Program-made: the position numbers and the translations under genes
DNA from: an uncultured bacterium
GTDB lineage: Bacteria; Verrucomicrobiota; Kiritimatiellia; CAIKKV01; CAIJXV01
Direction of reading: 5' to 3'
Assembly (NCBI GenBank): GCA_903824675.1
Contig: CAIJXV010000086.1
Location: forward strand, 1 to 64,000
Length of the DNA stretch: 64,000 nt
The notes under the pieces: generated by a model
The model's database searches: none
What the model was told of the DNA's origin: nothing
What the model saw: only the letters and a program-made list of their open reading frames with translations
In this document: piece after piece, positions 6,811 through 47,475 of the stretch
Numbering within the stretch: position 1 is the stretch's first letter
Layout of the letters: each line of letters begins with the position of its first letter

Positions 6811-8628
6811 TCATTCCTCCGGAGTGACGACCAAATGGTTCATGATATAGGCCCGGCGGTCGGGGGTATTGCGGCCCATGTAGAAGCGGAGAATGGGCGC
6901 CACCTGTTGGGGCCCCGGCGAGGAGACCGGGCTGAGTCGCATTTCCGGCCCGATAAAGGGCGCGAATTCAGCCGGAGAAATCTCTCCCAGTCCTTTGAAA
7001 CGGGTGATTTCGGCGCGATTCCCGAGGGTTTTTAATGCGGCATCGCGTTCTTCCTCGGCATGGCAATAAATCGTCCTGGCCTTGGTCCGAACACGGAAGA
7101 GAGGGGTTTCGAGGATGAAGAGATGGCCCTGAGCTACCAACCGCTCGAAAAAGCGAAGAAAATAGGTGATTAAGAGGTTGCGGATATGCAGACCATCCAC
7201 ATCGGCATCAGTGGCCAGGATGATTTTCTGGTACCGGAGCCCCTCAATGGATTCCTCGATATTCAGGCTTTTCATCAGGTTGTAAATTTCATCATTCTTA
7301 TAGATGGCGTCGCGAGACAATTCGGCCACGTTCAGAGGTTTGCCCTTGAGCGCAAAAATGGCTTGGGTATTGACGTCCCGGCATTGGATGATCGATCCTG
7401 CGGCCGATTGCCCTTCCGTGAGGAAGATCATCGAATCGAGCCCTGCACTGGTACGGCGGTTAAGATGCCGGCGGCAGTCCTTCAATTGGGGTACGCGGAG
7501 AGTGACTGCACGGGCGCGTTCACGGGCTAATTTGCGGACCGAGAGCAACTCGCGACGCAGACGTTGGATTTCGTCGATCCGGTCGATGAGGGTTTGGGCC
7601 CCGGCGGGGTTACGATGGAACAAATCGAGGATTCCGTCGCGGATTCGCGGAGTCAGTTCCGCTCGGAGTTCGGTATTTCCCAAGCGGTTCTTGGTTTGAG
7701 ATTCGAAGACGGGATTTTTGAGGCGGATGGCTACTGCCCCGACCATGCCTTCACGAACGTCATCGCCTTCGAATTTCTTTTTTGAAAATTCATTAACGGC
7801 CCGGAGCAACCCTTCCCGGAAAGCCGTCAGGTGGGTGCCCCCGTCGGACGTGAACTGTCCGTTGACGAAGGAATACCATTCTTCATGGGTTCGTGGGCAA
7901 TGGGTAAAAGAAAGCTCCAGATCGCGATCCCGCAGGTGGAGTGGAGGATAGAGCGCCTCGTCGCCGGCATCGGCTTTGACCAGATCACAGAGTCCGTTGC
8001 GCGAGGCTTGGGTGACGCCATTCAGAATGAGTTTCAGTCCAATATTCAGATAGGCGTAGAACCGCAGGCGTCGTTCCAGATGCTCGGAGCGGAATGCACC
8101 GGGGCCGAAAATCTCGGAATCGGGTTCAAATTCAACCAGGGTGCCGTTGGGTTCCTCGGGGCAGTCCCCCCGATTTTCCCGAAGGGGTTTACCGCGCGCA
8201 AAGGTGGCTTCGGCAAAATGGCCTTCACGATGGGAACGAACGCGAAAGGTGGAGGCGAGGGCATTGACGGCTTTTAGGCCAACCCCATTAAGCCCGACAC
8301 TGAACTGAAAAACGTCATCGTTATACTTGGCCCCGGTGTTGATTTGGGAGACGCATTCAGAGAGTTTACCGAGCGGGATTCCGCGGCCAAAATCGCGGAC
8401 AGAAACCTGCCGATTTTCGATCGAGATATGGATTTCGTTGCCATGTCCCATGATATGTTCATCGACCGCGTTATCGATGACCTCTTTGAGCAGGACATAG
8501 ATGCCGTCATCATAATCGGACCCGTCGCCGAGCCGGCCGATATACATCCCGGTTCGCAGGCGAATATGGTCGACCGATGAAAGGGTCTTGATTTTACTGT
8601 CGTCATAGGAATGCGGCGATTTAGGCAT
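6811..8628 (-). CDS. parE: DNA topoisomerase IV subunit B (ParE-type ATPase)
   Basis: 605 residues. The GHKL ATPase domain has EVIDNAVDEH (Asn near residue 53), DFGRGIPLG and GLNGVGLKAVNAL. The transducer follows, then the Toprim domain with EGQSAAGSI (Glu near 405) and DADVDG (near 476-478). The C-terminus has GRNTPDRRAYIM. The compact length fits ParE or short GyrB. It uses ATP to drive strand passage with the A subunit encoded just downstream. I prefer ATG 8628 over an in-frame start 22 codons upstream, because AGGA precedes it and family conservation begins soon after. It may be co-transcribed with the genes upstream, across an 82-nt gap. Confidence 0.88.
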   Translation of the reverse strand: MPKSPHSYDDSKIKTLSSVDHIRLRTGMYIGRLGDGSDYDDGIYVLLKEVIDNAVDEHIMGHGNEIHISIENRQVSVRDFGRGIPLGKLSECVSQINTGAKYNDDVFQFSVGLNGVGLKAVNALASTFRVRSHREGHFAEATFARGKPLRENRGDCPEEPNGTLVEFEPDSEIFGPGAFRSEHLERRLRFYAYLNIGLKLILNGVTQASRNGLCDLVKADAGDEALYPPLHLRDRDLELSFTHCPRTHEEWYSFVNGQFTSDGGTHLTAFREGLLRAVNEFSKKKFEGDDVREGMVGAVAIRLKNPVFESQTKNRLGNTELRAELTPRIRDGILDLFHRNPAGAQTLIDRIDEIQRLRRELLSVRKLARERARAVTLRVPQLKDCRRHLNRRTSAGLDSMIFLTEGQSAAGSIIQCRDVNTQAIFALKGKPLNVAELSRDAIYKNDEIYNLMKSLNIEESIEGLRYQKIILATDADVDGLHIRNLLITYFLRFFERLVAQGHLFILETPLFRVRTKARTIYCHAEEERDAALKTLGNRAEITRFKGLGEISPAEFAPFIGPEMRLSPVSSPGPQQVAPILRFYMGRNTPDRRAYIMNHLVVTPEE

Positions 8629-24439: not shown

Positions 24440-25465
24440 ATGTCCAGTTTGCCCAAAACGATCCGGTCGGTTGAAGAACTTGATGAACTTCTCAGTCGGC
24501 CCAACCCCCATCTCGTCGAAACCTTGAAGCATCTTTCCGGGGACATCATGATCCTCGGTGCCGGGGGGAAAGTCGGCCCCACGCTGGCCCTGATGGCCAA
24601 GCGGGCGGTGGATGCCGCCGGTGTCAAAAAACGCGTGATTGCGGTCGATGTCCAGCCATTGGAAGCGCTTGCGCAAAAGGGCGTAGAAACCATTGCTTGC
24701 AACATGCTCGATCTGGATGCCATCGCGAAATTGCCCAATGTCGAAAACATTGTCTATATGGTCGGCCGTAAATTCGGGTCGACCGGCAGTGAATCCATGA
24801 CCTGGGCCATCAACGTGATTGTCCCCTACCATGTGGCACGGACCTTTACCTCCTCCCGCATCTCGGCCTTTTCCACCGGGTGTGTTTATCCCGTGGTAGA
24901 TATCAAGACCGGTGGGGCAACGGAGATCATGTCTGCGGATCCAGTGGGTGAATACGCCCAGTCCTGTCTGGGACGGGAACGCATGTTTGATTATTTTTCT
25001 GAGAATAAAGGCGAACGGGTGGCCCATGTCCGTCTCAATTACGCCATCGAATTGCGTTATGGCGTCATTCATGATATTGCCGCCAAGATTTGGAGCGGCG
25101 AGCCGGTGGATGTGACCACGGGATATGCCAATGGCATCTGGCAGGGTGACGCCTGCAACCAGGCGTTGATGGCGCTGGAATATGCGTCTTCCCCTGCGAC
25201 TATTCTGAATGTTACGGGGCCGGAAATCTTTGCCATCCGGGAAGTCGCGCTGACGCTCGGGCGCCTGATGGGGAAAGAGGTTAAGTTCTCCGGCCAGGAA
25301 AATGGCATGGGGTATCTCAATAACGCCCGCAAGGCGAACGCCCTTTTCGGCAACCCCACCGTTCCCTTGGGCCGTGTCATCGAGTGGGTCGCCCACTGGG
25401 TTAAGTCCGGCGGGGCAAGCTTGGGCAAAGCCACCCATTTCGAAACCCAGAACGGCAAATATTGA
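24440..25465 (+). CDS. NAD-dependent epimerase/dehydratase (extended SDR)
   Basis: 341 residues. The Rossmann fold begins with DIMILGAGGKVGPTLA (a Gly-rich loop of GxGGxxG form), then an acidic VDVQ that should bind the NAD ribose. An extended-SDR C-terminal domain follows with NVTGPEIFAIREVA. The classical YxxxK pair is not obvious, so the chemistry may differ from UDP-sugar epimerases. The start is ATG 24440 with GGAGGAG 5 nt upstream; an ATG at 24377 would add 21 unconserved residues. It is the first gene of a long plus-strand block and is followed by three Gfo/Idh/MocA oxidoreductases and other enzymes, so a sugar or polyol substrate is likely. The pathway is unknown. Confidence 0.75.
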   Translation: MSSLPKTIRSVEELDELLSRPNPHLVETLKHLSGDIMILGAGGKVGPTLALMAKRAVDAAGVKKRVIAVDVQPLEALAQKGVETIACNMLDLDAIAKLPNVENIVYMVGRKFGSTGSESMTWAINVIVPYHVARTFTSSRISAFSTGCVYPVVDIKTGGATEIMSADPVGEYAQSCLGRERMFDYFSENKGERVAHVRLNYAIELRYGVIHDIAAKIWSGEPVDVTTGYANGIWQGDACNQALMALEYASSPATILNVTGPEIFAIREVALTLGRLMGKEVKFSGQENGMGYLNNARKANALFGNPTVPLGRVIEWVAHWVKSGGASLGKATHFETQNGKY

Positions 25466-25496
25466 TCCGTCCGGGAGTTTTCGAGAGGGAGTCGCC

Positions 25497-26672
25497 ATGC
25501 GGAAAATTCGTGTTGGAATAGTCGGGGCCGGTATGGCCGGACGGTTCCACCTTCAATGCCTGCGTCGAGTCTATGGGGCCGAAGTGGAGGTCACGGCCGT
25601 GACCTCCCTCCGGGCTGAAAGTCGTGATGCTTTCGGTCGGGAACATGGCATTCCCGTTTATCCCGATCTCTCGTCGATGGTTCCGCATGTGGATCTGCTG
25701 GATATTTGTTCCCCTCCGTATGCCCATGAACAGGGTATTCTGCTGGCCGCCGAAGCGGGCAAAGCGATTATTTGCGAAAAACCGCTCACGGGCTATTTCG
25801 GGGATGGCCGGGAGACTTTTCGGGGAAATACGGCATCCAAAGAACGCATGTTGGAAGAGGTCTTGATCCGCTTGCGACGAATTGCTTCAGCGGTCCGTTC
25901 GAGTGGTGTTTTTTTTGGATATGCCGAAAACTTTATCTATGCACCATCGATTCAAAAGGAACGCGAGATTGTTGAAAAGTCGGGGGCCCAGATATTGAGG
26001 ATGCTCGGGGAAGAATCCCACAATGGATCGGCTTCTCCCGTGTATGGGATATGGAAATTCGCAGGAGGTGGCTCACTGATCGGGAAGGGCTGTCATCCCC
26101 TTAGTGCGTTGTTCTATTTAAAACGCATGGAAGGTTCTGCCCGTTGGGGGAAACCGATCCGACCCACCCGGGTCAGTGCCCGCACCCATGAATTAACTCG
26201 TCTCCCGGCTTATCAGGATCGGAAGCTGATCCGAACCGATTATCTCGATATCGAGGATTACGGCTGGATCCATGTTGAATTTGAGGATGGCACCATCGGA
26301 GATATCGTCACCGGCGAAGTGGTTTTAGGCGGCATATACGACTATGTTGAGGTTTTTGCCAATAACCACCGCACCCGTTGTCAGATCAGTCCGACCGGGC
26401 TGGTGGATACCTATAATCCCCGGGGCGAACAATTCAAGGATGTCTACCTGATCGAAAAAGCCAGTACCCAGGAAGGTTGGGCGCAGGCGGCGCCGGATGA
26501 AAACTTCACCATGGGCTATCAGGCTGAAGTTCAAGACTTTATGAGTAGTATAGCACAAGGACGAAAACCCCAGGCTGATTTGGATCTGGCCTTGGACACC
26601 ACGGCGGCTATTTACGCCGCCTATGTGTCACAAGAGCGGCGGGGTGCGGAAGTGGCAGTTCCCTTGATTTAA
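25497..26672 (+). CDS. Gfo/Idh/MocA family oxidoreductase 1
   Basis: 391 residues. The N-terminal NAD(P)-binding loop is VGIVGAGMAGRFHLQCL, the EKP motif is CEKPLTG, and the C-terminal alpha/beta substrate domain contains the GKGCHPLSA stretch, whose His is a catalytic candidate. The start is ATG 25497 after GAGAGGGAG; the open frame extends upstream but overlaps the previous gene. Such enzymes oxidise or reduce sugars, inositols and sugar acids. It is longer than the two other family members in this block and only distantly like them, so the three probably act on different intermediates. Confidence 0.85.
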   Translation: MRKIRVGIVGAGMAGRFHLQCLRRVYGAEVEVTAVTSLRAESRDAFGREHGIPVYPDLSSMVPHVDLLDICSPPYAHEQGILLAAEAGKAIICEKPLTGYFGDGRETFRGNTASKERMLEEVLIRLRRIASAVRSSGVFFGYAENFIYAPSIQKEREIVEKSGAQILRMLGEESHNGSASPVYGIWKFAGGGSLIGKGCHPLSALFYLKRMEGSARWGKPIRPTRVSARTHELTRLPAYQDRKLIRTDYLDIEDYGWIHVEFEDGTIGDIVTGEVVLGGIYDYVEVFANNHRTRCQISPTGLVDTYNPRGEQFKDVYLIEKASTQEGWAQAAPDENFTMGYQAEVQDFMSSIAQGRKPQADLDLALDTTAAIYAAYVSQERRGAEVAVPLI

Positions 26673-26692
26673 CCCTAAGGAGAGACACGGTT

Positions 26693-27760
26693 ATGGCGGA
26701 TCAGGTTTTAAAAGTTGCGATTATCGGGCTCGGTCATCTACACCCTCGCTCCTATATGCCACTGTTCAATATGGTTCCCCAGACGAAAGTCGTGGCTGTG
26801 ATGGAACCCGATACCTCGTTGCGAGAACCCTTTGCCAAAGAGTTCGGTCTTGCGGCATATTCCGATTTGGATGTATTGCTGAATCGGGAGGCTCCCCAGA
26901 TTGCCGCGATCTTTATGCCGCATGTCGATTGTCCCTCCGCTGCCGTCCGGTGCGCCGATAAAGGGGTAAACGTCATGGTTGAAAAACCCGTCGCGGCCAG
27001 TGCCGATGGAGCTCAATCCATCGTGACTGCCGTGCGAAAGAACAAATTAAAAATGACGACCGGTTATTGCTGGCGTCTACATCCCGTCGCCCGCGAAATC
27101 AAACGATTGATCGATGGCGGAGTGATCGGAGAGGTCATTGGCGGAGAAGGCCGGTGCGCAGCGGGACGCTTGACCCGCTATATCGATGGTCAATCCCCCT
27201 GGATGCTGGAAAAAGCCAAGTCCGGCGGTGGCCCCATCTATAATCTCGGAGTGCATTGGATCGATCTCTTTCGCTGGATGCTCAGTGATGAGGTGGCGGA
27301 AGTGTCCGGACGAAACGTCAAGGTCAATACCCGATACGATATCGAGGACAATTCGTTTGCCCACTTGCGCTTCAATAAAGGTGCATTGATGGCTTTGGAT
27401 ATCAGTTACACTGTTCCCGACTGCTTTCCTTATGGCCGGGATCTTTACATCGGAATCCGTGGTACCCGGGGGGTTATATCCTGGGCGCCAGCTTACGAAG
27501 GGCAAAAAGATATCCTGCACGTTTGCAGTGACGATCCAGCCCTGTCCGGCTCTCCCCGGCGGAATCAGGAATTCGAACTGGAAACCGTCAAAGGCTACTC
27601 CGGTTACATGGGGCGGGAATACGTTACGGCGTTTGCTAATTCGATCTTGTCCGGCGGAGAACCGCCGATCACTGGAGAAGACGGAGTGGCGGCCTTGCGT
27701 GTCGTCGAGGCGATTTACCAGGCAGGGGCAGAAAAACGATGGGTGGAGGTCAAACGATGA
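26693..27760 (+). CDS. Gfo/Idh/MocA family oxidoreductase 2
   Basis: 355 residues, the usual family length. The NAD(P) loop is VAIIGLGHLHPRSY, with the EKP motif in MVEKPVAAS. The substrate domain carries GGGPIYNLGVHWIDLF, whose Asn-x-x-x-His-x-x-Asp pattern is the usual catalytic Asp-His signature. AAGGAG precedes the ATG. Its stop overlaps the start of the D-2-hydroxyacid dehydrogenase gene (ATGA), which argues for linked function. The substrate is unknown. Confidence 0.87.
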   Translation: MADQVLKVAIIGLGHLHPRSYMPLFNMVPQTKVVAVMEPDTSLREPFAKEFGLAAYSDLDVLLNREAPQIAAIFMPHVDCPSAAVRCADKGVNVMVEKPVAASADGAQSIVTAVRKNKLKMTTGYCWRLHPVAREIKRLIDGGVIGEVIGGEGRCAAGRLTRYIDGQSPWMLEKAKSGGGPIYNLGVHWIDLFRWMLSDEVAEVSGRNVKVNTRYDIEDNSFAHLRFNKGALMALDISYTVPDCFPYGRDLYIGIRGTRGVISWAPAYEGQKDILHVCSDDPALSGSPRRNQEFELETVKGYSGYMGREYVTAFANSILSGGEPPITGEDGVAALRVVEAIYQAGAEKRWVEVKR

Positions 27761-28740
27761 AGGTTGTAGTCACCGATTATATTGAAGAAAATCTCGATTG
27801 GGAAGCGGACCAGTGCCGAAAGGCCGGTATTGACTTCGCGGCCTATCAATTAAAATTCAAGCCCGAAGCCGACGTCCTGGCCAAGATCGCAGATGCCGAT
27901 ATCGTCGTGGTCAACATGGTCAAATTTGATGCGTCGCTGGTCTCCAAGCTGACCCAGTGCAAGCTTCTGATTCGGCATGGGATAGGCTATGACAATGTGG
28001 ATGTCGAGGCCTGTACGCGCCAAGGAATCCAGTTTGCTTATCAGCCGGACTACTGCAAGGAAGATGTGGCCGAACATGCAATCGCCCTGATCTTTGCACT
28101 CGCCCGTAAGGTGGTTTGGAGTCGCCAAGTTCTCGATGACTCCAGTGCCCGGGGTCAGTGGGACTTCAAGGGGCTTTTTCCTATCTACCGGATGGACGGC
28201 AAGACCCTCGGAATCGTTGGGGTGGGGCGTATTGGGAGTCGCGTTTTTCGGAAAATGAAGCATTTCGGCATGAAAATCATTGCCTCTGATCCGTATTTAA
28301 GCGAGGCCCGTCGCGCCGAATTGGGAATTGAATTCGTGGATCGAAAAACTCTTTTCCAAACGGCTGATTTCATCACCATTCATACGCCGCTCAATCCGGA
28401 AACGCGCCACTTGGTCAATGCGGAAACCCTGAGGCTGATGAAGCCCACCGCATATCTCGTCAATACCGCTCGGGGACCGATGGTCGATGCGGAGGCATTG
28501 GCTCAGGTCCTGCGGGAAAAACGGATCGCGGGTGCGGCCATTGATGTATTCGATGTCGAGCCGCCGCCCACCTCCCATCCGTTGTTCGGATTAGACAATG
28601 TCATCTTGACGCCCCATATCGGCTGGGCCTCCGAGGAGGCCGGATGGGAAATTCGAAAAAGCATCGTGGACGATATCCTGTCCTGCGCTCAAGGCCGGGC
28701 TGCCCGGTGTGTGGTGAACAAGGAAATTCTTAAAAAGTGA
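27757..28740 (+). CDS. D-isomer-specific 2-hydroxyacid dehydrogenase (CtBP/SerA-like)
   Basis: 327 residues. The NAD loop is GKTLGIVGVGRIGSR (GxGxxG). The catalytic triad is complete: Arg in NTARGPMVD, Glu in FDVEPPP and His in LTPHIGWAS. The enzyme interconverts a D-2-hydroxy acid and its 2-oxo acid with NAD(H). There is no ACT domain, so it is not a full-length regulated SerA. ATG 27757 has GGAGGT 7 nt upstream; a start 6 codons earlier is possible but unlikely. Both neighbours overlap or nearly abut: ATGA with the oxidoreductase and a 10-nt gap to the aminotransferase. Confidence 0.87.
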   Translation: MKVVVTDYIEENLDWEADQCRKAGIDFAAYQLKFKPEADVLAKIADADIVVVNMVKFDASLVSKLTQCKLLIRHGIGYDNVDVEACTRQGIQFAYQPDYCKEDVAEHAIALIFALARKVVWSRQVLDDSSARGQWDFKGLFPIYRMDGKTLGIVGVGRIGSRVFRKMKHFGMKIIASDPYLSEARRAELGIEFVDRKTLFQTADFITIHTPLNPETRHLVNAETLRLMKPTAYLVNTARGPMVDAEALAQVLREKRIAGAAIDVFDVEPPPTSHPLFGLDNVILTPHIGWASEEAGWEIRKSIVDDILSCAQGRAARCVVNKEILKK

Positions 28741-28750
28741 GGAGTTGATC

Positions 28751-30076
28751 GTGGCTATTACAAATGTCAAAGGATCTCTTCCCGGGCCCAAGAGTAAGGC
28801 TTTGCTTGAAAAATGGCACAAGTTTGAAGCCGATGTCGTGGGATATCAGGCTCAAACTGTCTGGGAAAGCGGCGCCGGGGTTGTGGTGACCGATGTCGAT
28901 GGCAACCGATTTATTGATTGGACCTCCGGGGTTTTGGTTACCAACGTCGGCCACTGTCATCCCAAACTCGTCGCCGCCGTGCAAAAAGCAGCTGGCCAGT
29001 TATTGAACAACTATGAGTGCGCGAATGTTCAGCGCATCCAGGCAGCGGAAGCGCTGGTCAAGCACTTGCCCAAGCAACTTGATCAGTGTTTCTTCCTGTC
29101 CACGGGGGCCGAATCCACGGAAGCCGCCGCCCGCCTGATGAAACGCAAGACTGGTAAGTACGAAATTCTAGCTTTTGAAGGCGCCTTTCATGGTCGGACC
29201 TTTGGGGCCGCTTCGCTGGGTGGGATGGCCGGCCCCAAACGGATGTATGGTCCCAGCGTGCCGGGAACCATCCGCGCCGCATTCCCCAATCCGTATCGCG
29301 ATCCCAATGGCTGGTGCAACGAGGGCCCGAATTTTAACCGCTATTTCGATTACCTCGATCAGGTGATCATGGCCAACTCCACGGGAAGCCTCGCGGGCGT
29401 GATGGTCGAGCCGTATCAAGGCGCGGCTGGGTTCATCTTCCCACCCGCGGGATGGTTGAAGAAATTGGTCGAATGGGCTCATGCCCGTGACTTGCTCTTT
29501 ACCCTCGACGAAGTTCAATCCTCCTATGGGCGAACAGGGCGAATGTGGGCCGCGGATCATGAGGCTTTGGATGTCGACCTGATGACTATCGGCAAGGCGA
29601 TCGGGTGTGGCGTTCCCGTGTCTGCCGTGGCGGCACGGTCCTCGGTTTTCAGTTGCCTCAAAAAAGGGGAACTCTCCAGTACCCTGGGGGGGAACCCGAT
29701 GTCCAGCGCGGCCGTGATCGCCATTCTCGAAATCATGGATGACGAAAAACTCACGGCCAATTCAGCGCAGATCGGGGCCTACATGAAAGACCGTCTGACG
29801 GCGATGATGCCGACCTGCCCGTATCTCGGAGATGTTCGGGGTATGGGATTGGTGATGGGCCTCGAATTCGTCAAGGACAAGAAGTCGAAGGTTCCGGCCC
29901 CTGAATTGATCAAGATCGTTATCGACACCTGTGCCAATCGCGGTCTACTGGTCGGTTCGGTCGGCATGTATGGCAATGTGATCCGGGTCGCTCCGCCCCT
30001 GGTCATCAGCAAAGCTGAGGCCGATGAAAGTCTTGAGATTATGGCTGGAGTTCTAAAGGATTTAAAATTGCCATGA
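28751..30076 (+). CDS. Class III PLP aminotransferase (GABA/ornithine-type)
   Basis: 441 residues. Class III features are STGAESTEAAARL (phosphate site), FEGAFHGRTFGA, the PLP-ring Asp in FTLDEVQSSYGRTG, and the Schiff-base Lys in MTIGKAIGCG. The fold transfers an amino group from an omega-amine or amino sugar to a 2-oxo acid. The start is GTG 28751, preceded by GTGAGGAG that overlaps the stop of the upstream gene; a TTG 6 nt earlier lies too close to that site. Its stop overlaps the M20 gene start (ATGA), which suggests that deacylation and transamination act on one substrate. Confidence 0.87.
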   Translation: MAITNVKGSLPGPKSKALLEKWHKFEADVVGYQAQTVWESGAGVVVTDVDGNRFIDWTSGVLVTNVGHCHPKLVAAVQKAAGQLLNNYECANVQRIQAAEALVKHLPKQLDQCFFLSTGAESTEAAARLMKRKTGKYEILAFEGAFHGRTFGAASLGGMAGPKRMYGPSVPGTIRAAFPNPYRDPNGWCNEGPNFNRYFDYLDQVIMANSTGSLAGVMVEPYQGAAGFIFPPAGWLKKLVEWAHARDLLFTLDEVQSSYGRTGRMWAADHEALDVDLMTIGKAIGCGVPVSAVAARSSVFSCLKKGELSSTLGGNPMSSAAVIAILEIMDDEKLTANSAQIGAYMKDRLTAMMPTCPYLGDVRGMGLVMGLEFVKDKKSKVPAPELIKIVIDTCANRGLLVGSVGMYGNVIRVAPPLVISKAEADESLEIMAGVLKDLKLP

Positions 30077-31317
30077 CCTCAGATCGTATTCATGACATGG
30101 TTCGCACGCAGCTCCCGGACATCGGAAAGGTGCTGGGAGATTTGATCCGATTCCCGTCTACTTCCGGACGTGAACAGGATGCGATGGTGTTTTTGGACCG
30201 GCTTCTCAAGGCCGACGGCTTCCAGGTTGAGCAGGTAGCCTTGTCCAATGCCTTGCGTCAGGATCCGGATTACAGTAATCCCATTCCCGATATCAACTAT
30301 GACGGCCGTTTTAATTTGCGGGTGTCCTTGCCCGGTTCGGGTGGGGGAAAAACGGTCCTTTTCAACGGACATACGGATGTTGTTCCGCCCTCAGTGGATC
30401 AACCCGATCCTTGGACTCCACGGCTCGAAAACGGTGTTCTTTTCGGGCGCGGTGCCTGCGATGCCAAAGGCCAAGTGGCAACCATCCTCCTGGTTTTGCG
30501 CACGCTCAAATCGCTGAACATCAAGCTGCGCGGGTCGGTTCTTGCCCACCTGGTCAACGAGGAAGAAAATGGAGGCAATGGCACACTGGCCATGGCGCGC
30601 AAAGGCGAAAAAGCGGATGCCTGTGTGGTGCTGGAACCGACGGATCGTCGAGTGTTTACCTCGATTCGAGGGGCGGTCTGGTTCCGCCTGGTGTTCAGTG
30701 GAAGAGCCGGCCACAGCGGACAGGCGGGAGTCACCCGCAGCGCCTTGTTGATGGCCCGGGATGCGATGGCTATTCTTGAAGCCTACCATGCCGATTTGCT
30801 GAAACGCTCTCGGGGCCTGCCGCTTTTTGATGTTTACCCCAATCCGATGCCGATCACGTTTGGGCATTTGGAAGCGGGTAATTGGCCGGCATCCGCGCCC
30901 AGTCGGGCGGTCATGGAAGGCGTTTTGGGTTTGTTGCCAAATGTGACCAAAGAGCAGGTCTGTGAGGAAATGAAGGCGGCTCTGGCAAAAGGGGGGGATG
31001 AGTTTTTTGCCGCTAATACCGCCCTGACGTTCATGTATCGCCATGACAGCAGTGTCATCGATCCCCACGCTGATTTTTCGCCCGCCTTGATCCGGGCTAC
31101 CCAGGCGGCCGGAGTCCCGGCCGAAATAGCGGCGATGACCGCATCGTGTGATGCTTGGTTTTATAACAACCAGTTGGGTATTCCCACGGTTGTATATGGG
31201 CCGGGTTCTTTGAAAGTGGCCCATTCCAAGGATGAGCAAATCGCCTTGGACGAAATTGCTGGAGCGGCGGAAACCTTGGTTCGATTCATTCTCGATTATT
31301 GTGGAACATCATCATGA
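30073..31317 (+). CDS. M20 family metallo-deacylase (ArgE/DapE-like)
   Basis: 414 residues, typical for M20. The di-zinc ligands are in FNGHTDVVPP (His, Asp), GRGACDAKGQ (bridging Asp), NEEENGGNG (catalytic Glu then Glu ligand), VLEPTD and a C-terminal VAHSKDEQ (His). A dimerisation domain is inserted between. Family members remove N-acyl groups from amino acids or cleave dipeptides; some act on N-acyl amino sugars. Overlaps of 4 nt at both ends join it to the aminotransferase and the zinc dehydrogenase. Confidence 0.87.
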   Translation: MTSDRIHDMVRTQLPDIGKVLGDLIRFPSTSGREQDAMVFLDRLLKADGFQVEQVALSNALRQDPDYSNPIPDINYDGRFNLRVSLPGSGGGKTVLFNGHTDVVPPSVDQPDPWTPRLENGVLFGRGACDAKGQVATILLVLRTLKSLNIKLRGSVLAHLVNEEENGGNGTLAMARKGEKADACVVLEPTDRRVFTSIRGAVWFRLVFSGRAGHSGQAGVTRSALLMARDAMAILEAYHADLLKRSRGLPLFDVYPNPMPITFGHLEAGNWPASAPSRAVMEGVLGLLPNVTKEQVCEEMKAALAKGGDEFFAANTALTFMYRHDSSVIDPHADFSPALIRATQAAGVPAEIAAMTASCDAWFYNNQLGIPTVVYGPGSLKVAHSKDEQIALDEIAGAAETLVRFILDYCGTSS

Positions 31318-32351
31318 AAGCACTGGTTAAAACCCAAAAAGGGGTTGGCTACATCGAGGTTCGTGAGATGCCGGAACCTCAGCCCGGGCCGGGTGAAGTG
31401 AAAATCAAAGTTGCGGCCTGCGGTATTTGCGGGTCCGATATCCATGTTCGCCACGATTCATTTCCCTATTGGCCACCGGTCATTTTAGGGCATGAGTTTA
31501 CCGGTACGATTGTGGCCCTCGGGACGGACTGTACCCTTTACAAAGAAGGGGAACGGGTGGTTGCCGAGCCGCATACCAAAGCGTGTGGGGTCTGTTATCT
31601 TTGCCGCACCGGCAATATTCAGATTTGCCCCCATAAGCGTTCACCCGGGTGGGGGATCCATGGCGGCATGGCGGAATATATCTGTTATCCTGAAAAACTT
31701 TTGCATCGCTTACCGGCTACGATGACTTGGGATCAAGCCGCCGTGGTTGAACCGGTGGCCAATTGTGTGACCGATCTGATTGAGCATACGGGGGTCATTC
31801 CCGGCGATTTTGTGGTGATTTTAGGCCCCGGCCCGATCGGGTTGATGGCGGCTCTCGTGGCCCGTGCGGCAGGAGCTCGGGAAGTGGCCATCATTGGCAC
31901 CCCGGGGGATGAGGCGCTCCGCATGAAAAAGGCGCGCGAATTAGGATTTACCCAACTGATCAATCTCGCTCAGACCAATCCGGTCGAAGCCATTTTGTCC
32001 CTGACCGATGGACGAGGGGCGGATATCGTGGCCGAATGCAGTGGGGCGCCGAAGGCCATTGCTTCTACCGTCGATTTGGTTCGCAAAAAAGGAAAAATCT
32101 GCGCGATAGGATTAACCGGCAACAAGATGGTTGAGTTGCCCTGGGACAAGTTCAACTTCAAGGTGGTGGATCTGCAGTTCAATCTCTCCACGAGTTATAC
32201 CTCTTGGGATCGGACTATCAGTTTGATTAATAGCGGGGCCGTTCCCGCTGAAAAGATCATCAGCCACCGTGCCCCCTTGGAAAAATGGGAAGAGGTCTTC
32301 AACGCCATTGAAAATCTTCAGGCGTTGAAAGGATTGATGATTCCGGGCTAA
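31314..32351 (+). CDS. Zinc-dependent medium-chain dehydrogenase (sorbitol/threonine dehydrogenase-like)
   Basis: 345 residues. The catalytic zinc site is in ACGICGSD and LGHEFTGT. The structural zinc site is the four-Cys lobe CGVCYLCRTGNIQIC. The cofactor loop is ILGPGPIGLMAA. This is the polyol/threonine dehydrogenase branch of the alcohol dehydrogenases, oxidising a secondary alcohol with NAD(P). ATG 31314 overlaps the stop of the M20 gene; 5 extra residues upstream are unlikely. Substrate is unknown, though a sugar alcohol or amino-polyol fits the neighbours. Confidence 0.87.
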   Translation: MKALVKTQKGVGYIEVREMPEPQPGPGEVKIKVAACGICGSDIHVRHDSFPYWPPVILGHEFTGTIVALGTDCTLYKEGERVVAEPHTKACGVCYLCRTGNIQICPHKRSPGWGIHGGMAEYICYPEKLLHRLPATMTWDQAAVVEPVANCVTDLIEHTGVIPGDFVVILGPGPIGLMAALVARAAGAREVAIIGTPGDEALRMKKARELGFTQLINLAQTNPVEAILSLTDGRGADIVAECSGAPKAIASTVDLVRKKGKICAIGLTGNKMVELPWDKFNFKVVDLQFNLSTSYTSWDRTISLINSGAVPAEKIISHRAPLEKWEEVFNAIENLQALKGLMIPG

Positions 32352-32378
32352 GCAATTACGATCAAGAGAGGAAAAATC

Positions 32379-33455
32379 ATGGCCAAAATAATTGGATTTG
32401 GAATTTTGGGTTCGGGACTTGTTGCGCCTTTTCACGCCAAGGGAGTAAGGGATTCCCAGGGTGGGCAGTTAATCGCCGTCTGCGACATGAATCGTGAACG
32501 AGCTGATAAAATGGCGGGCGAATTCAAGGTTAAAGCCTATTACTCTCTGGCAGACATGTTGCAGGACTCCACAATCCAGGTTGTCAATGTAGCCCTGCCG
32601 AATCATCTGCATCGCGACGCGGTGTTGGATTGTGCCAGGGCGGGGCGGCATGTCCTTACGGAAAAACCCCCGGCGATGAGTCTCAAGGACACCGACGAGA
32701 TGATTGCCGCCTGTAAAAAAGCCAAGGTCAAATTCGGCTGCACGGTTCAATGCCGAGTGCGCAAGGCGATTCAAGCCATCAAGAAAGCCGTTGATTCCGG
32801 GCGCTTTGGAAAAATCTTGCATGCCGATGCTTATATGAAGTGGTTCCGTTCGTCCGATTATTATAAATCTGATGCATGGCGGATGTCCCGCAAGTCAGGC
32901 GCAGGCGTTACCATTCAGCATGCTTTTCACTATATTGATCTGCTCCAATACCTGGTCGGCCCCGCTCGTCGGGTTCAGGCCCGGATGACCAATCTGGCCC
33001 ACCCGGAGGTCCAACTGGAGGATACGGTTCTGTCTTTCGTGGACTTTATGTGTGGCGCGCAAGGTGTTGTCGAGGCATCCACCGCACTGTGGCCGGGAAC
33101 GGATATCCGGATCGAAATTAACGGAGTGGATGGAACGGCTATCATGATGGGCGAAAAGATGACCACTTGGAAATTCCGCGAAGAAAAGCCTGAGGATGCC
33201 GAAATCCGTTTATACGGAAGCGCAGCCCAGGCAACCGGAGCCGGTGGCGCCGCCGATTTCGGACATGCGGACCATAAAGTGGTCATCCAGGATATGATCG
33301 ATGCGATCAATGAGGATCGCGAAGTGGTCATCCCGGTTTCATCGGTGCGTCCCACCCTCGAAATCTGCCTGGCCATGTATCAATCGTCAGCCAGCAAGAA
33401 AGCCATTGACCTTCCTGTTCAGGATGACGAAACCGCCTGGGAGTGGAAAGGTTGA
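32379..33455 (+). CDS. Gfo/Idh/MocA family oxidoreductase 3
   Basis: 358 residues. The NAD(P) loop is FGILGSGLVAPFHAKG, the EKP motif is LTEKPPAMS, and the catalytic region is GAGVTIQHAFHYIDLL with its His-x-x-x-His/Asp pattern. It is preceded by AGAGGAAAAATC and follows the zinc dehydrogenase after 27 nt. It completes the run of eight metabolic enzymes before the polysaccharide exporter genes. Three members of this family in one operon is common for multi-step oxidation, epimerisation or reduction of an unusual sugar. Confidence 0.87.
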   Translation: MAKIIGFGILGSGLVAPFHAKGVRDSQGGQLIAVCDMNRERADKMAGEFKVKAYYSLADMLQDSTIQVVNVALPNHLHRDAVLDCARAGRHVLTEKPPAMSLKDTDEMIAACKKAKVKFGCTVQCRVRKAIQAIKKAVDSGRFGKILHADAYMKWFRSSDYYKSDAWRMSRKSGAGVTIQHAFHYIDLLQYLVGPARRVQARMTNLAHPEVQLEDTVLSFVDFMCGAQGVVEASTALWPGTDIRIEINGVDGTAIMMGEKMTTWKFREEKPEDAEIRLYGSAAQATGAGGAADFGHADHKVVIQDMIDAINEDREVVIPVSSVRPTLEICLAMYQSSASKKAIDLPVQDDETAWEWKG

Positions 33456-33465
33456 AAGGATTGCT

Positions 33466-34257
33466 GTGAATCTATTGGCGTCCTTGAAGCATCACCAGGA
33501 TCTTCTCTGGATCCTGGTGATGCGAAATATCAAAATTCGCTACAAGAATTCTTCTTTGGGATTCTTGTGGACTCTATTAAGCCCGATTTTACTGATTGTC
33601 ATTTACAAGGTGTTCCTGTCGATTCTGCGATTCAAGATTGATTTGCCAGTGTTGGTTATCGGCATCATGGGATGGAACTTCCTGAGCATGTGCATGGGGG
33701 ATTCCTTATATGCCGTACTCGGCAACGCCAATATGGTCAAGAAAAGCGCGTTTCCCCGGATTGTTCTCCCTTTGTCCATGGTTCTGGCAAATCTCGTTAA
33801 CTTCCTCCTGTTTTTGGTGGTCGTTTGTTTTTACCTGCTCATCCTGCATGTAGTTTCCGGACTGGCCTTACCGGGGGTGACCCTGATTGCCCTCCCGTTG
33901 ATTATTGTGACCCAATTAGCGCTATGTCTCGGGGTTAGTTTGATTTCATCATCATTGAACGTATATTTTCGGGATATGGAACATATTCAGGGGATTGTCA
34001 TGATGGCCTGGTTTTTCATGACTCCGGTGATCTATCCCGTCTCTCAGGTCACGAGTAAATTTGGATCCAGTTTCCAAATTCTATTCTTTCTCAACCCCAT
34101 GACCGGCTTGGTGTCGGCGTACCGGGCCATTTTACTGAATCTGCCGTTTCCCTCGGTCGGATTGCTGGCTCTGTCGGCATTCTCCGCCTGGATCATTTTA
34201 CTGGTGGGTCTCCGCTTGTTCGATAAACTTCAGGTCCGTTTTGCTGATGTGCTGTAA
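33466..34257 (+). CDS. Polysaccharide ABC exporter, permease (Wzm-type)
   Basis: 263 residues of the ABC-2 permease family, with about six membrane segments (for instance FLWTLLSPILLIVIYKVFL, VLANLVNFLLFLVVVCFYL and a last helix near the C-terminus). The N-terminus has the family motif RNIKIRYKNSSLGFLW. The start is GTG 33466 with GAAAGGA 5 nt upstream; the open frame runs back into the previous gene. With the ATPase downstream it should export a lipid-linked or other polysaccharide across the inner membrane. No glycosyltransferases lie beside it, so the polymer is unknown. Confidence 0.85.
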   Translation: MNLLASLKHHQDLLWILVMRNIKIRYKNSSLGFLWTLLSPILLIVIYKVFLSILRFKIDLPVLVIGIMGWNFLSMCMGDSLYAVLGNANMVKKSAFPRIVLPLSMVLANLVNFLLFLVVVCFYLLILHVVSGLALPGVTLIALPLIIVTQLALCLGVSLISSSLNVYFRDMEHIQGIVMMAWFFMTPVIYPVSQVTSKFGSSFQILFFLNPMTGLVSAYRAILLNLPFPSVGLLALSAFSAWIILLVGLRLFDKLQVRFADVL

Positions 34258-34268
34258 AGGATCCGTTC

Positions 34269-35477
34269 ATGGATGATGTCGTCATCAAAGTTAGCGGTTT
34301 AAGTAAAAGTTTCAATTTGAACCGCCGCGGTGCTTTGACGTTTAAAGGAATGGCCCTAGACTGCGTCAATCAACTCCGAGGTAAAACTGATCCTTCGCGC
34401 CTCTTATGGGCTCTAAAGAATATCTCATTTGAGGTTAAACAAGGAGAGGTGCTGGGGCTGATCGGCGCCAATGGCGCCGGAAAAAGCACACTCCTGGGAC
34501 TGCTTGCCGGCACAATGGCTCCCTCGACCGGGTTGATCACCACCCGTGGGTCGATATCCTCCCTGCTGGAATTGGGCGCGGGATTCCATCCGGATTTGAC
34601 GGGAAAAGAAAATATATTCCTGGCCGGCGCAACGATGGGATTGAGTCGTCGCCAAATGAGCGACCGCCTGGATGCAATTGTCGATTTTGCGGGGTTGGCC
34701 GCCTTCATCGATCAACCCGTTAAACACTATTCGTCCGGCATGTATGTCCGTCTGGGCTTCGCTGTGGCCGTCGAGGTGAATCCGGACATCCTTCTGATCG
34801 ATGAGGTGCTGGCGGTTGGCGACGCGGCGTTTCAACGCAAGTGTATGAAGCGCATGGAGGAGTTTCGCCGCCTGAAAAAAACCATGTTGATCATCTCCCA
34901 TGATCTGAATGCCATCCAGGCCGTCAGTACCCGGATTCTCTTTCTCGACGGAGGCGAGGTTAAGGGCGATGGCGCTCCCTCCGAAATCGTCGATGCCTAC
35001 GAGTCCTTCTGGCGCCGGAAAAACAGCACTGAATTTCAACGAGAGTGGGGAACTCGCGAAGTCCTTCTTGAAACCGTAGAGTTCCAGAATGACGCGAACC
35101 AGACGACCGATAAATTTGAATGGGGCCACCCCTTGACCGCCCGCATCCATTACCGGGCTGCCCAACGTATCGAAAATCCGGTTTTTGGATTTGCCATTAG
35201 CGACTCAGCCGGGCGCATAGTATACGGAAATAATACCCAGATCGAAAACTTTTCCATCCCGTCGATCGAGGGGGTGGGGGAAATTCGCCTGACTTTTCCC
35301 CAGCTCAATCTGGCCCGCGGTACCTATCTCTTCTCGTTTTCGGTGCATTCCGCTGACCACCAAATCAACTATCATCGTTTGGATCATGCCTTTCCGATTG
35401 CGGTCGAATCCTCGCGACGGTTTGAAGGATTATGCCATATGCCCTGCGTCTGGGATTCATCGCTGGAGATTCCGTGA
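34269..35477 (+). CDS. Polysaccharide ABC exporter, ATPase with C-terminal carbohydrate-binding domain (Wzt-type)
   Basis: 402 residues. The nucleotide-binding domain has Walker A GANGAGKSTL, the signature YSSGMYVRLGFAVA (SSGM in place of LSGGQ, as in TagH/Wzt proteins), and Walker B ILLIDEVLAVGD. From about residue 250 a beta-rich domain (PVFGFAISDSAGRIVYG) matches the Wzt C-terminal module, which recognises the end of the exported glycan. Such modules require a specific terminal residue, so the oxidoreductase and aminotransferase genes just upstream might make that residue. This is inference. The stop overlaps the nadC start (GTGA). Confidence 0.88.
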   Translation: MDDVVIKVSGLSKSFNLNRRGALTFKGMALDCVNQLRGKTDPSRLLWALKNISFEVKQGEVLGLIGANGAGKSTLLGLLAGTMAPSTGLITTRGSISSLLELGAGFHPDLTGKENIFLAGATMGLSRRQMSDRLDAIVDFAGLAAFIDQPVKHYSSGMYVRLGFAVAVEVNPDILLIDEVLAVGDAAFQRKCMKRMEEFRRLKKTMLIISHDLNAIQAVSTRILFLDGGEVKGDGAPSEIVDAYESFWRRKNSTEFQREWGTREVLLETVEFQNDANQTTDKFEWGHPLTARIHYRAAQRIENPVFGFAISDSAGRIVYGNNTQIENFSIPSIEGVGEIRLTFPQLNLARGTYLFSFSVHSADHQINYHRLDHAFPIAVESSRRFEGLCHMPCVWDSSLEIP

Positions 35478-44895: not shown

Positions 44896-47475
44896 ATGAA
44901 ACGTTCTTCGAAAAACAGTAATGACTCCTTTACAAAAGAGATGTCCATTGCCCATCGGATATGGATCGGCGACAACCTGGCCATCAATGCCACCCGTCTA
45001 TTCCGTCGGGTCTTTCAGATCCCCCACCCCGATCAGGTCCGTTCCGCAACACTTCGGCTGTTTGCGGACCAAACTTTCCATCTCTGGTTCAACGGGGTTT
45101 ATCTCGGCAGGGGGCCGACGTTCTTTCATCCCCACCGTCGGCCGGTCCACACCTTCGATCTTAAACCCCACCTCGTCGCCGGCACGAATGTGCTGGCGAT
45201 ACGAGTTCATTCTGCAGGGATTCCCCTGCACAATTATGTCGCCTCGGGTTCCCCCGGCATCGTGGCCCGTCTCGATTTGACCGATCATTCCGAGGTCACT
45301 CAAACTTTGATTTCCGATCAACAATGGCGGGTCACCGACCAGACGGGGTGGTCCAATTCCACACCCCGGCGTTCCTGGGCGATCGGGTTCATAGAAGCTT
45401 TTGATTCGCAAATTGCACCTGAGAATTGGATCGGCTCCGATTTCGACGATCATTTGTGGCCTGCGGCAGAGGAGCGCCCCCTCTTCCCTCCCGGCGTCCG
45501 GGGGATCTTCTTCCCCGCCGATCTTCCCTCTCTTCGATATGAATGGATTCCTGCGCATACCTTACTGGGAACCTATGCGATCCAGGGCGATGCCCCCCTG
45601 CTGCCGCCCGATGCCCCCACCAGCGCCTACGGGGAAGCCCTAATGGCGCAGCCCTGGTCTGCGGCGGGTGTCAAAGCGTCAATTTGGGGCAGCCTCAACG
45701 ATTCTGGGGGCGGCTTGATGATTCAAGGCGTACATCCCGATCAAACCCTTTCGTTGGTTTTTGATCTGGGGGCCCAATACACCGGCGGTTTTGGTTTCGA
45801 TTTAATGAGTGATAGTCCCGGCTTGATTGAAATCGGCTGGGGTGAATTGATCGAAAATGATCGCCCCGCCATGCTCCGAAAAGGCAATACCTACGCCGAT
45901 CGCTATCACGCCCGCCAAGGCGCCAATCATTGGCTCCCCCATGGGTTCAGTTCCGGTCGCTACCTGACTCTGATACTCCGGCAGTTTACCGGTTCGGTAA
46001 CCTTCCATCGGGTCGGCATCCTGTCGTCCGAGCCGGATCTTCATTGGGCCGCCTCATTCTCCTGCAATCGCCCCGTTCTTAACGATATCTGGAATCTCTG
46101 CGCCCGGACCCAAAAAGTCGGCACTCAGGAAGGCTTGATGGATTGTCCGACCCGCGAGCAAGCCGCTTATGTTGGAGATGGGAACCCGGTCGCACAATGG
46201 ATATACCATCTGACCGGAGATGCCCGCCACTGGCGGCACTTGATCCGCGAAACATTTGCCGTTCAAAGCGAAGAGGGGTTGATAAAGACCCAGGTTTTTT
46301 CCGGAATGCAAGGGATCCTGTTGGATTATTGTTTACTGGCCATCGTCGGCGCCCGAAACTATTGGAAAGAAACGGGTGATCGTGACCTCCTTCGGGAGAT
46401 ACTGCCCGCCGCCGATCGTCTGATTGGATGGTTCAAACAACGGACCGATGAAAACGGCCGGTTTAATGTTCCCCTTGAAACCCTGCCGCGGAACATCGGC
46501 TGGGCCGTCGCGCCGGCATCGGCAGCGGATGCTTTTACAAACTGTGGATTTCTTATTTTTATCGACCATCCGGGGACGGGATGGCATAACGTCGGTGATC
46601 CGGGAATTGAGCGTAAAGGATTGAACACCGGGATCAATGCCCTTTATGCCATTGCCTTACGCGCGCTCACGGAACTGCATCAGGCGGTCGAGTCCCCGGA
46701 TGCCTCTCGTTTTCTGGCCGAGGCGGATCGGGTGGCTGGCGCAAGTGACATCTTCTGGAGCCGCCGTCGGGGGCTCTTCAGTGATGGACTATCCGGTGAC
46801 CGGCTCCACTCCCAGTTCAGCCGACAAACCAACACGTGGTGTGTTTCTGCCGGGTTCGTGGATGCCACCCGGAGCCGCCGGATATTGAAGAAACTTATGG
46901 AGGTTGATGATCCTCAACTGGTTCGTTGTGGACCCTACTTCTGGTCCTACCTCCTCCCCGAACTGGCCCGGGCCGGACTATTAAATCTGGGTCTGGAAGC
47001 CATCGAAAAGGAATGGCAAGTCATGCTTGAGGGCGGAGCCACCACCTTGTGGGAAACCTTTGCGGGTGATGCGTTGGATTCCTATTGCCATCCCTGGTCA
47101 GGGGCACCCCTGGAGTTTCTCCTGCGCTCTATTGCCGGCATTCCATTTGAATCCATCGGCTCGGAAGACTTGGTGATCAAGCCGCGGCCTGATTTAATCA
47201 GTGAAGTCGTCGCCCGAGCTGCCACGCGACAAGGTTGGTTCCATATTGAATGGCGGGCAGATGGAGAGGCGTTCATGTTTAAAGGGACCGTTCCCGAAGG
47301 AAAAACGGCAACGGTTAACTTCCCCGATGGAACAACATTTCTTGCTGCGGACCGCTGGACACATGACTATCGACCCCGCGTCCGTCGCAAACGCAGTTCC
47401 CTGAAGATTTTTAATTTAATCGACCAACTGACGTCGAGCCCTGGAGATGAGCCCATCTCCGACCCAGACGCGTGA
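44896..47475 (+). CDS. Alpha-L-rhamnosidase, glycoside hydrolase family 78
   Basis: 859 residues. An N-terminal beta-sandwich (LWFNGVYLGRGPTFFHP; TNVLAIRVHS) is followed by a further beta domain. The catalytic (alpha/alpha)6 barrel has the GH78 signature in modified form: DCPTREQAAYVGDG where many members read DCPQRDERLGWTGD. LWETFAGD and SYCHPWSGAP occur late in the barrel. No signal peptide was seen, so it may be cytoplasmic. It removes terminal rhamnose from plant glycosides or pectin side chains. The ATG 44896 lies directly behind AGAAGGG; ATG 44941 is possible. The gene is alone on the plus strand between rnpB and the island. Confidence 0.82.
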   Translation: MKRSSKNSNDSFTKEMSIAHRIWIGDNLAINATRLFRRVFQIPHPDQVRSATLRLFADQTFHLWFNGVYLGRGPTFFHPHRRPVHTFDLKPHLVAGTNVLAIRVHSAGIPLHNYVASGSPGIVARLDLTDHSEVTQTLISDQQWRVTDQTGWSNSTPRRSWAIGFIEAFDSQIAPENWIGSDFDDHLWPAAEERPLFPPGVRGIFFPADLPSLRYEWIPAHTLLGTYAIQGDAPLLPPDAPTSAYGEALMAQPWSAAGVKASIWGSLNDSGGGLMIQGVHPDQTLSLVFDLGAQYTGGFGFDLMSDSPGLIEIGWGELIENDRPAMLRKGNTYADRYHARQGANHWLPHGFSSGRYLTLILRQFTGSVTFHRVGILSSEPDLHWAASFSCNRPVLNDIWNLCARTQKVGTQEGLMDCPTREQAAYVGDGNPVAQWIYHLTGDARHWRHLIRETFAVQSEEGLIKTQVFSGMQGILLDYCLLAIVGARNYWKETGDRDLLREILPAADRLIGWFKQRTDENGRFNVPLETLPRNIGWAVAPASAADAFTNCGFLIFIDHPGTGWHNVGDPGIERKGLNTGINALYAIALRALTELHQAVESPDASRFLAEADRVAGASDIFWSRRRGLFSDGLSGDRLHSQFSRQTNTWCVSAGFVDATRSRRILKKLMEVDDPQLVRCGPYFWSYLLPELARAGLLNLGLEAIEKEWQVMLEGGATTLWETFAGDALDSYCHPWSGAPLEFLLRSIAGIPFESIGSEDLVIKPRPDLISEVVARAATRQGWFHIEWRADGEAFMFKGTVPEGKTATVNFPDGTTFLAADRWTHDYRPRVRRKRSSLKIFNLIDQLTSSPGDEPISDPDA

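Follow-up and report, generated by a model that had tools for sequence, protein, structure and literature searches.

What pathway is encoded by eight adjacent enzyme genes that bring together several sugar-type dehydrogenases, a pyridoxal 5′-phosphate (PLP) enzyme and an N-deacylase in an uncultured bacterium? The genes, here g1–g8, lie in a 64,000-nt stretch of DNA (the window; positions 1 to 64,000 of contig CAIJXV010000086.1, assembly GCA_903824675.1) from a member of the Kiritimatiellia (Verrucomicrobiota). They constitute one real, strongly conserved operon, carried by distantly related uncultured bacteria. It is quite possible, and it is the reading that we tentatively favour, that the operon is catabolic and serves a dehydrogenase-initiated, non-phosphorylated breakdown of an N-acetylated amino sugar, such as that of chitin or of bacterial cell walls.

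All eight enzyme open reading frames (ORFs) recognised in an earlier sequence-only reading of the window were recovered on the forward strand (Table 1), with 4-nt overlaps at g3/g4, g5/g6 and g6/g7 and no gap above 31 nt elsewhere, in agreement with its description of junctions that are mostly overlaps or gaps under 32 nt. Pfam places g2–g8, all over cut-offs, in the families that it had named. A search of GTDB contigs with a g2 alignment returned 305 loci. The best 80 of these were retained: 24 with at least three of g2–g8, 55 with g2 alone, and one (L062, where g1 and g2 lie at the end of a contig) placed in neither group. With the window added there are 25 cassette loci. In 15 of them, counting the window, g2–g8 are complete, collinear and on one strand, at 52–86% identity to the window, and the gene order is therefore not due to chance. 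Adjacent cassette gene pairs occur in 12 to 23 of the 25 loci, the median gap ranging from 4 to 33 nt. The homologues are thus co-located in relatives rather than scattered, the point on which the sequence-only reading had let its proposal turn. That reading knew of no described operon with this set, and none was found in the literature searched, which covered few subscription papers.

Among the carriers of complete cassettes are Lentisphaerae, Verrucomicrobia/Opitutae and one Planctomycetes metagenome-assembled genome (MAG); partial ones occur in one Armatimonadetes MAG (at a contig end) and one Chloroflexi MAG (reduced). The planctomycete carriers are two MAGs, L057 and L059, the latter breaking off after g5. 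Within stretches of up to 20 kb round g1 relatives, L016 and L017 (the same as L061) hold the full g1–g8 order, and L021 holds g2–g8 in order with g1 elsewhere. The cassette is rare in wider samples. Its most cassette-specific gene, g2, has a match at E up to 1e-60 in 16 of the 387 genomes sampled from the window's phylum. For g5 (E up to 1e-150), one genome of 294 in the phylum of L057 and one of 301 in that of L068 gave a match, in both cases the starting genome itself. Losses from the cassette are of several kinds: g3 alone is missing from L056, L036 carries g1–g7 without g8 though its contig runs on, and the Chloroflexi MAG keeps g2–g5–g6 alone (L068). The pair that persists in reduced cassettes is g5 and g6. 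A second locus of that Chloroflexi genome, L140, has g5 and g6, which are 56% and 46% identical to those of the window, together with a g2 remnant of 69 residues; after g5 and g6 come genes for a KduD-like short-chain dehydrogenase/reductase (SDR), a 2-hydroxyacid dehydrogenase and a RidA protein in a single run, and NagA-like and NanA-like genes lie on the opposite strand. The remnant occupies 11714–11923 of L140 (genome G706). At 6963–8294, L142 (genome G708) carries a g5 relative on its own, with 51% identity.

How might these enzymes act together? In the scheme that we favour, for which we infer every reaction, the substrate, the step order and the dehydrogenase roles, the Gfo/Idh/MocA and possibly the zinc-dependent dehydrogenases would carry out the oxidation, finally at C1, that turns the sugar into an N-acetyl-aldonic acid. 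In chemical terms such a product is an N-acyl α-amino acid, which the ArgE/DapE-type M20 enzyme g6 would deacylate to a 2-amino-3-hydroxy acid, and g5 would then take off the nitrogen. Two branches can be envisaged for g5. Ammonia-lyase chemistry, that is, elimination with loss of ammonia, would give 2-keto-3-deoxygluconate (KDG); transamination would give a 2-ketoaldonate that g4 could reduce as a 2-ketoaldonate reductase. KDG would be phosphorylated by a KdgK-type kinase and then cleaved by a 2-keto-3-deoxy-6-phosphogluconate (KDPG) aldolase, or, in some genomes, a FAH enzyme may alternatively hydrolyse a 2,4-diketo acid. The lyase branch would explain the KdgK and Eda genes and the RidA protein of L140.

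The two enzymes at the centre of this scheme have the expected residues. For g5 the Aminotran_3 score (325.6 bits) compares with a cut-off of 30.5, and K284 and D255, which we take to have their usual roles in a class III aminotransferase, are invariant in 11 of 11 aligned sequences; among the matches listed, its best NCBIfam model is PRK05769, at 358 bits against a cut-off of 552. Similarly, g6 scores 110 bits with Peptidase_M20 (cut-off 24.6) and is closest to ArgE/DapE deacylases; H100, D102, D130, E164, E165, E188 and H384 (alignment numbering), presumably the M20 metal ligands, are the same in all 10 g6 sequences compared. None of the eight operon proteins reaches an NCBIfam cut-off among the matches listed (for g5 and g6, the best 25 models). 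The nearest solved relatives of g5 are γ-aminobutyrate (GABA) transaminases, amino-acid racemases and dialkylglycine decarboxylase. The transaminases and racemases, the ArgE/DapE likeness of g6, and a second M20-family gene that overlaps the g8 end in L029 would also suit the breakdown of an N-acyl amino compound that is not a sugar (for example N-acyl amino acids, opines or the peptide parts of muropeptides), with g5 as an ordinary transaminase or racemase. We consider this very unlikely, as the three Gfo/Idh/MocA enzymes, like the linked KDG-type kinase and aldolase, suggest that the skeleton is that of a sugar.

The step assigned to each dehydrogenase, which we infer from family and fold, is the least supported part of the pathway. 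PF01408 is exceeded (cut-off 24 bits) by g2, g3 and g8, with 69.7, 72.4 and 92 bits, and IolG is the best NCBIfam model for all three (61.2, 98.3 and 114.8 bits), each below the IolG TIGR04380 equivalog cut-off of 355 bits. Likewise, g7 lies below both of its equivalog cut-offs, at 232.2 against 380 bits for Tdh (NF003808) and 211.8 against 450 bits for IolM (NF041097). The fold neighbours of the g2 model (predicted local distance difference test, pLDDT, 79) are inositol 2-dehydrogenase IolG at the top, KanD2, GenD2 and levoglucosan dehydrogenase. The solved structures nearest to g8 are 3q2k (E 3e-42), titled WlbA, and 3q2i (E 3e-38), and g8 also matches a glucuronide 3-dehydrogenase structure. 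WlbA (3q2k, 3q2i) is a UDP-N-acetylglucosaminuronic acid (UDP-GlcNAcA) 3-dehydrogenase. IolG, KanD2, GenD2 and WlbA oxidise C2 or C3, not C1, and by analogy it is therefore possible that ring oxidation or epimerisation precedes oxidation at C1.

The same relatives can be read as inositol or aminocyclitol catabolism of the Thermotoga IolG–IolM kind, with the deacylase and aminotransferase added for an N-acylated inosamine. IolG as the best model of three enzymes, the 212-bit match of g7 to IolM and the top fold match of g2 to inositol 2-dehydrogenase all fit such a pathway and, as the Thermotoga-type IolG/IolM inositol pathway also runs into KDG, it would account for KdgK and Eda. We regard it as quite unlikely: the scores fall far under the IolG and IolM cut-offs, no inositol-specific gene was recognised beside the cassette in the loci read, where GH20, NamZ and NagA-like genes were, and an M20 enzyme with a class III PLP enzyme would fit an open-chain α-amino acid better than a ring amine.

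Do the genes beside the cassette indicate breakdown or synthesis? Neighbours were mostly named by eye from translations first, with Pfam/NCBIfam scoring for selected ones, and the seeds for the flank count were picked from cassette loci, which biases it in their favour. Upon clustering of the flanking genes, only a KDG-kinase-type PfkB kinase (six) and a TetR regulator (six) recur in more than two of the 25 loci. The KdgK-type kinase is linked in 6/25 cassette versus 1/55 solo-g2 loci (Fisher p 0.003) and TetR in 6/25 versus 0/55; several solo-g2 loci end near g2, so that the absence of other genes there is uncertain. The kinase gene lies downstream on the same strand in L035, upstream and separate in L029, and immediately upstream and divergent in four Lentisphaeria loci. 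In L021/L035 the arrangement is g1, then Eda, KdgK, FAH and g8 to g2 on the other strand, then TetR. Other linked genes, per 25 cassette loci, are NamZ (2), an AmpG-like major facilitator superfamily (MFS) transporter (2), FAH (2), a family 20 glycoside hydrolase (GH20; 1), a NahK-like kinase (1), LarA (1), Wzm (1) and Wzt (1), compared with none in the 55 solo-g2 loci save one Wzt match at 28% identity. NamZ adjoins the cassette in L045 and L069, and the GH20 hexosaminidase gene is divergent from the reduced cassette of L068; the AmpG-like transporters of L033 and L100 score weakly with the AmpG model (72 and 46 bits, cut-off 350). Pfam confirms NamZ (L045), KDPG aldolase (L021), FAA_hydrolase (L035), Lar_N (L100), GH20 (L068), RhaA (L043), a fucosidase and heparinase II/III (L036) and a sodium:solute symporter (L057). 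What we observe directly is the gene set, its conserved order, the enzyme families and, in some relatives, linkage to KdgK, Eda, FAH and TetR.

A catabolic role is more likely than a biosynthetic one, because the neighbours include a KdgK-type kinase in 6/25 loci, Eda with FAH and KdgK in L021/L035, and TetR in 6/25, against Wzm/Wzt in 1/25. The sequence-only reading had left the substrate as an N-acylated amino sugar or aminocyclitol, handled in either direction. Of these options the neighbours favour breakdown and not synthesis, and an amino sugar is favoured over an aminocyclitol by GH20 in L068, NamZ in L045 and L069, the AmpG-like genes of L033 and L100, and the RidA, NagA-like and NanA-like genes of L140, with genome-wide tests weak or null. 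Synthesis of an unusual amino sugar for a polysaccharide exported by Wzm/Wzt has in its favour that, in the window, the end of g8 lies within the Wzm ORF and Wzt comes next, that WlbA provides the nearest solved structures of g8, and that L029 and L017 have glycosyltransferase, flippase or O-antigen-ligase-like genes nearby (by eye). Little can be read into this position, the genes on this strand being closely packed and running on to nadC-, coaX- and GMPP-like ones (named by eye). Wzm/Wzt stand by the cassette in just the one locus, on which count biosynthesis is ruled out as the leading explanation; moreover, the cassette is without a nucleotidyltransferase, and it is KdgK and TetR that recur beside it. 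We judge the biosynthetic alternative highly unlikely. Judging from the overlap of the Wzm ORF with the g8 end, the operon transcript need not stop at 33455. The region holds no more terminator-like sites than chance would give (13 found versus 14.9 expected in shuffles), and scans of the region for repeats, promoters and terminators gave nothing noteworthy.

The co-occurrence of candidate genes was also compared between 24 cassette genomes and 19 control genomes, the duplicates G710 and G711 (of G264 and G071, the genomes of L045 and L069) being dropped. Controls were genomes in which g2 gave no match at E up to 1e-60 (19 of the 20 listed, G051 being left out), G204 and G380 were counted as cassette-positive from the g2 score alone, and all p values are uncorrected for relatedness or multiple testing. 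A KdgK relative (E up to 1e-150) is present in 16/24 cassette versus 5/19 control genomes (p 0.014). MurQ is over its cut-off in 4 of 40 genomes, three of which are cassette genomes. Overall, genome-level support for an amino-sugar substrate is weak.

Several results indeed weigh against N-acetylated amino sugar breakdown. At the genome level, Eda (21/24 versus 13/19, p 0.15) and GH20 (15/24 versus 6/19, p 0.067) are not clearly enriched, NamZ does not differ (15/21 cassette versus 12/19 control, p 0.74), and canonical NagA over its cut-off is not depleted (11/24 cassette versus 3/19 control, p 0.052); on these counts, the cassette is no replacement for NagA. With the four Lentisphaeria loci collapsed to one, KdgK linkage falls to 3/22 versus 1/55 (p 0.068), and the KdgK and Eda genes of the window's own genome sit on other contigs. 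The linked amino-sugar genes are scattered single observations, each in one or two of the 25 loci, and other neighbours are RhaA, a fucosidase, heparinase II/III-like genes and GH2. As to the enzymes, the fold neighbours of g2 and the sequence neighbours of g8 would by analogy suggest oxidation at C2 or C3, not C1, and five oxidoreductases plus g4 exceed the needs of a simple route from N-acetylglucosamine (GlcNAc) through 2-acetamido-2-deoxy-D-gluconic acid (GlcNAc1A) to KDG. In addition, C2 of D-glucosaminate is D-like, and ArgE/DapE enzymes usually take L-substrates.

Some of these neighbours (FAH, KdgK, Eda, RhaA, fucosidase and heparinase II/III-like genes), together with the glucuronide 3-dehydrogenase match of g8, suit carbohydrate catabolism to a 2-keto-3-deoxy sugar acid whose main chain carries no N-acetyl group (a uronate or 3-keto-glycoside), g5 and g6 serving a side substituent. 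This is, in our estimate, rather improbable, for it leaves unexplained the retention of g5 and g6 in the minimal Chloroflexi cassette after loss of g3, g4, g7 and g8.

The remaining gene, g1, had been called an SDR epimerase. The g1 protein itself has no match in Pfam, NCBIfam or PDB sequence searches. The Epimerase Pfam family is matched by 14 of 16 members of the g1 family (E up to 1), and an AlphaFold2 model of g1 (pLDDT 92.1) has as its nearest Foldseek match TerB (E 2.3e-16), followed by UDP-sugar epimerases. By its relatives and by this model, g1 is predicted to have an extended SDR fold. The usual catalytic pair of SDR enzymes is YxxxK, and Lys four residues after the conserved Tyr occurs in 0 of 16 family members (Tyr being matched by motif position, not superposition). 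The SDR half of the earlier name stands, and the absence of this Lys makes the epimerase half doubtful. Relatives of g1 (E up to 1e-10) are present in 11 of 58 genomes searched, the window's genome among those listed.

Elsewhere, the g1-family SDR is commonly paired with a gene of the dihydrodipicolinate synthase (DHDPS) family, often with a TetR or GNAT gene. Such pairs (L020, L022–L026, L125–L128, L130 and L131) occur in bacteria of the Planctomycetes–Verrucomicrobia–Chlamydiae (PVC) group, Alphaproteobacteria, Bacilli and Streptomyces, and no DHDPS-family partner is listed for a haloarchaeal g1 relative (L129). At 3022–6844 of L018, genes for TetR, a g1-like SDR, a FAH-family protein and a g3-like Gfo/Idh/MocA enzyme are consecutive, the rest of the cassette not being there.

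Table 1 Genes of the operon and its downstream neighbours in the window.
Feature	Position	Strand	Assignment
g1	24440-25465	+	Extended SDR-fold protein, atypical; longest ORF from 24377; fold model and Epimerase Pfam in relatives
g2	25491-26672 (ATG at 25497)	+	Gfo/Idh/MocA oxidoreductase; PF01408, 69.7 bits
g3	26693-27760	+	Gfo/Idh/MocA oxidoreductase; PF01408, PF22725, PF02894
g4	27757-28740	+	D-2-hydroxyacid dehydrogenase, 3-phosphoglycerate dehydrogenase (PGDH)/glyoxylate reductase-like; PF02826, PF00389
g5	28745-30076 (TTG start)	+	Class III aminotransferase-fold PLP enzyme; PF00202, 325.6 bits; candidate deaminating step
g6	30073-31317	+	M20 (ArgE/DapE-type) deacylase; PF01546, 110 bits; candidate deacetylating step
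g7	31314-32351	+	Zinc-dependent medium-chain dehydrogenase, Tdh/IolM-like; PF08240, PF00107 (ADH_N/ADH_zinc_N)
g8	32379-33455	+	Gfo/Idh/MocA oxidoreductase; PF01408, 92 bits; nearest solved structures 3q2k, 3q2i
Wzm permease and Wzt ATPase	33445-35477	+	Neighbours, probably outside the pathway; Wzm start uncertain

The Wzm/Wzt pair sits between the operon and the nadC-, coaX- and GMPP-like genes, and no glycosyltransferase was recognised directly adjoining it. In the window genes that were scanned, the one glycosidase noted is of the α-L-rhamnosidase type (PF17389, 85 bits), at 44896–47475. Solo g2 genes (45–50% identity) belong to Pirellulales and other planctomycetes (L063–L067, L070–L099), and a neighbour resembling uroporphyrinogen decarboxylase (URO-D; named by eye) occurs in 12 of the 55 solo-g2 loci. 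As a clue to the role of g2 these loci were uninformative, their recurrent neighbours being URO-D-like genes and families without a recognisable name. Plasmid relatives of g2, g6 and g8 were set aside as distant homologues only, at no more than 37% identity among the matches listed.

Four systems share parts of this gene set or of its proposed logic. WlbA provides the nearest solved relatives of g8, whereas the present cassette is without UDP-sugar genes. The IolG/IolM system resembles it in combining Gfo/Idh/MocA enzymes with a zinc dehydrogenase and in its route into KDG; it differs in that the equivalog cut-offs are far from reached and that a PLP enzyme, an M20 enzyme, a D-2-hydroxyacid dehydrogenase and an SDR are added here. 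The SDR of the SDR–DHDPS-family pair belongs to the g1 family (45–59% identity), but there it stands with a DHDPS-family aldolase and in some cases with a GNAT or M20 gene, and the g2–g8 cassette is absent.

The ong cluster of Pseudoalteromonas prydzensis is the system closest in proposed logic. It converts GlcNAc1A to KDG 6-phosphate (KDG-6-P) through OngB, OngC and KdgK (Jiang et al. 2022, PMC9537276), and it also includes the GH20 enzyme OngA, the solute:sodium symporter (SSS) family transporter OngIT and the RidA protein OngD (PMC9537276). OngB is a D-aminoacylase-like deacetylase with an amidohydrolase barrel (PMC12017989) and OngC a fold-type III PLP enzyme (PMC9537276). The likeness lies in the same proposed sequence from an N-acetyl-aldonate through deacetylation and PLP-dependent deamination to KDG and KdgK, and in the occurrence of GH20, an SSS-type symporter and RidA at individual cassette relatives. 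A linked KDG kinase is found in 6/25 loci, the window's genome having it on another contig, and GH20 (L068) and RidA (L140) are each found beside the reduced Chloroflexi cassette only. The differences are that the only deacylase of the cassette is a Peptidase_M20 enzyme and not of the OngB type, that g5 belongs to Aminotran_3 and not to fold-type III as OngC does, and that the acid would come from dehydrogenases rather than from a lytic polysaccharide monooxygenase (LPMO), with several extra oxidoreductases. The cassette would thus work like ong if the amino-sugar reading is right, by analogy, but it lacks two of the defining features of ong.

A narrower form of amino-sugar breakdown, which we hold to be somewhat unlikely, is a dehydrogenase-initiated, oxygen-independent, non-phosphorylated route for cell-wall GlcNAc and/or N-acetylmuramic acid (MurNAc) in uncultured PVC bacteria. 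The parts played by OngB and OngC would there have been assumed, independently, by an M20 deacetylase and a class III-fold PLP lyase. If MurNAc were the substrate, PLP-dependent elimination would also free D-lactate for g4 and so open the lactyl ether independently of MurQ. MurQ-free MurNAc recycling was rejected as the principal claim on the NamZ and MurQ counts given above, and LarA near L100 was dropped as support for lactate, the LarA of L140 scoring over the malate-racemase cut-off. Should breakdown of an N-acetylated amino sugar prove right, a cassette whose order is conserved throughout the PVC group, and which a few distant phyla also carry, would gain a function open to testing, and the finding would help in assigning function to the widespread g1 SDR family and to the Gfo/Idh/MocA and class III PLP subfamilies. 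The operon would then stand beside ong as another way, built from non-homologous enzymes, to catabolise amino-sugar acids, and it would need neither molecular oxygen nor an LPMO.

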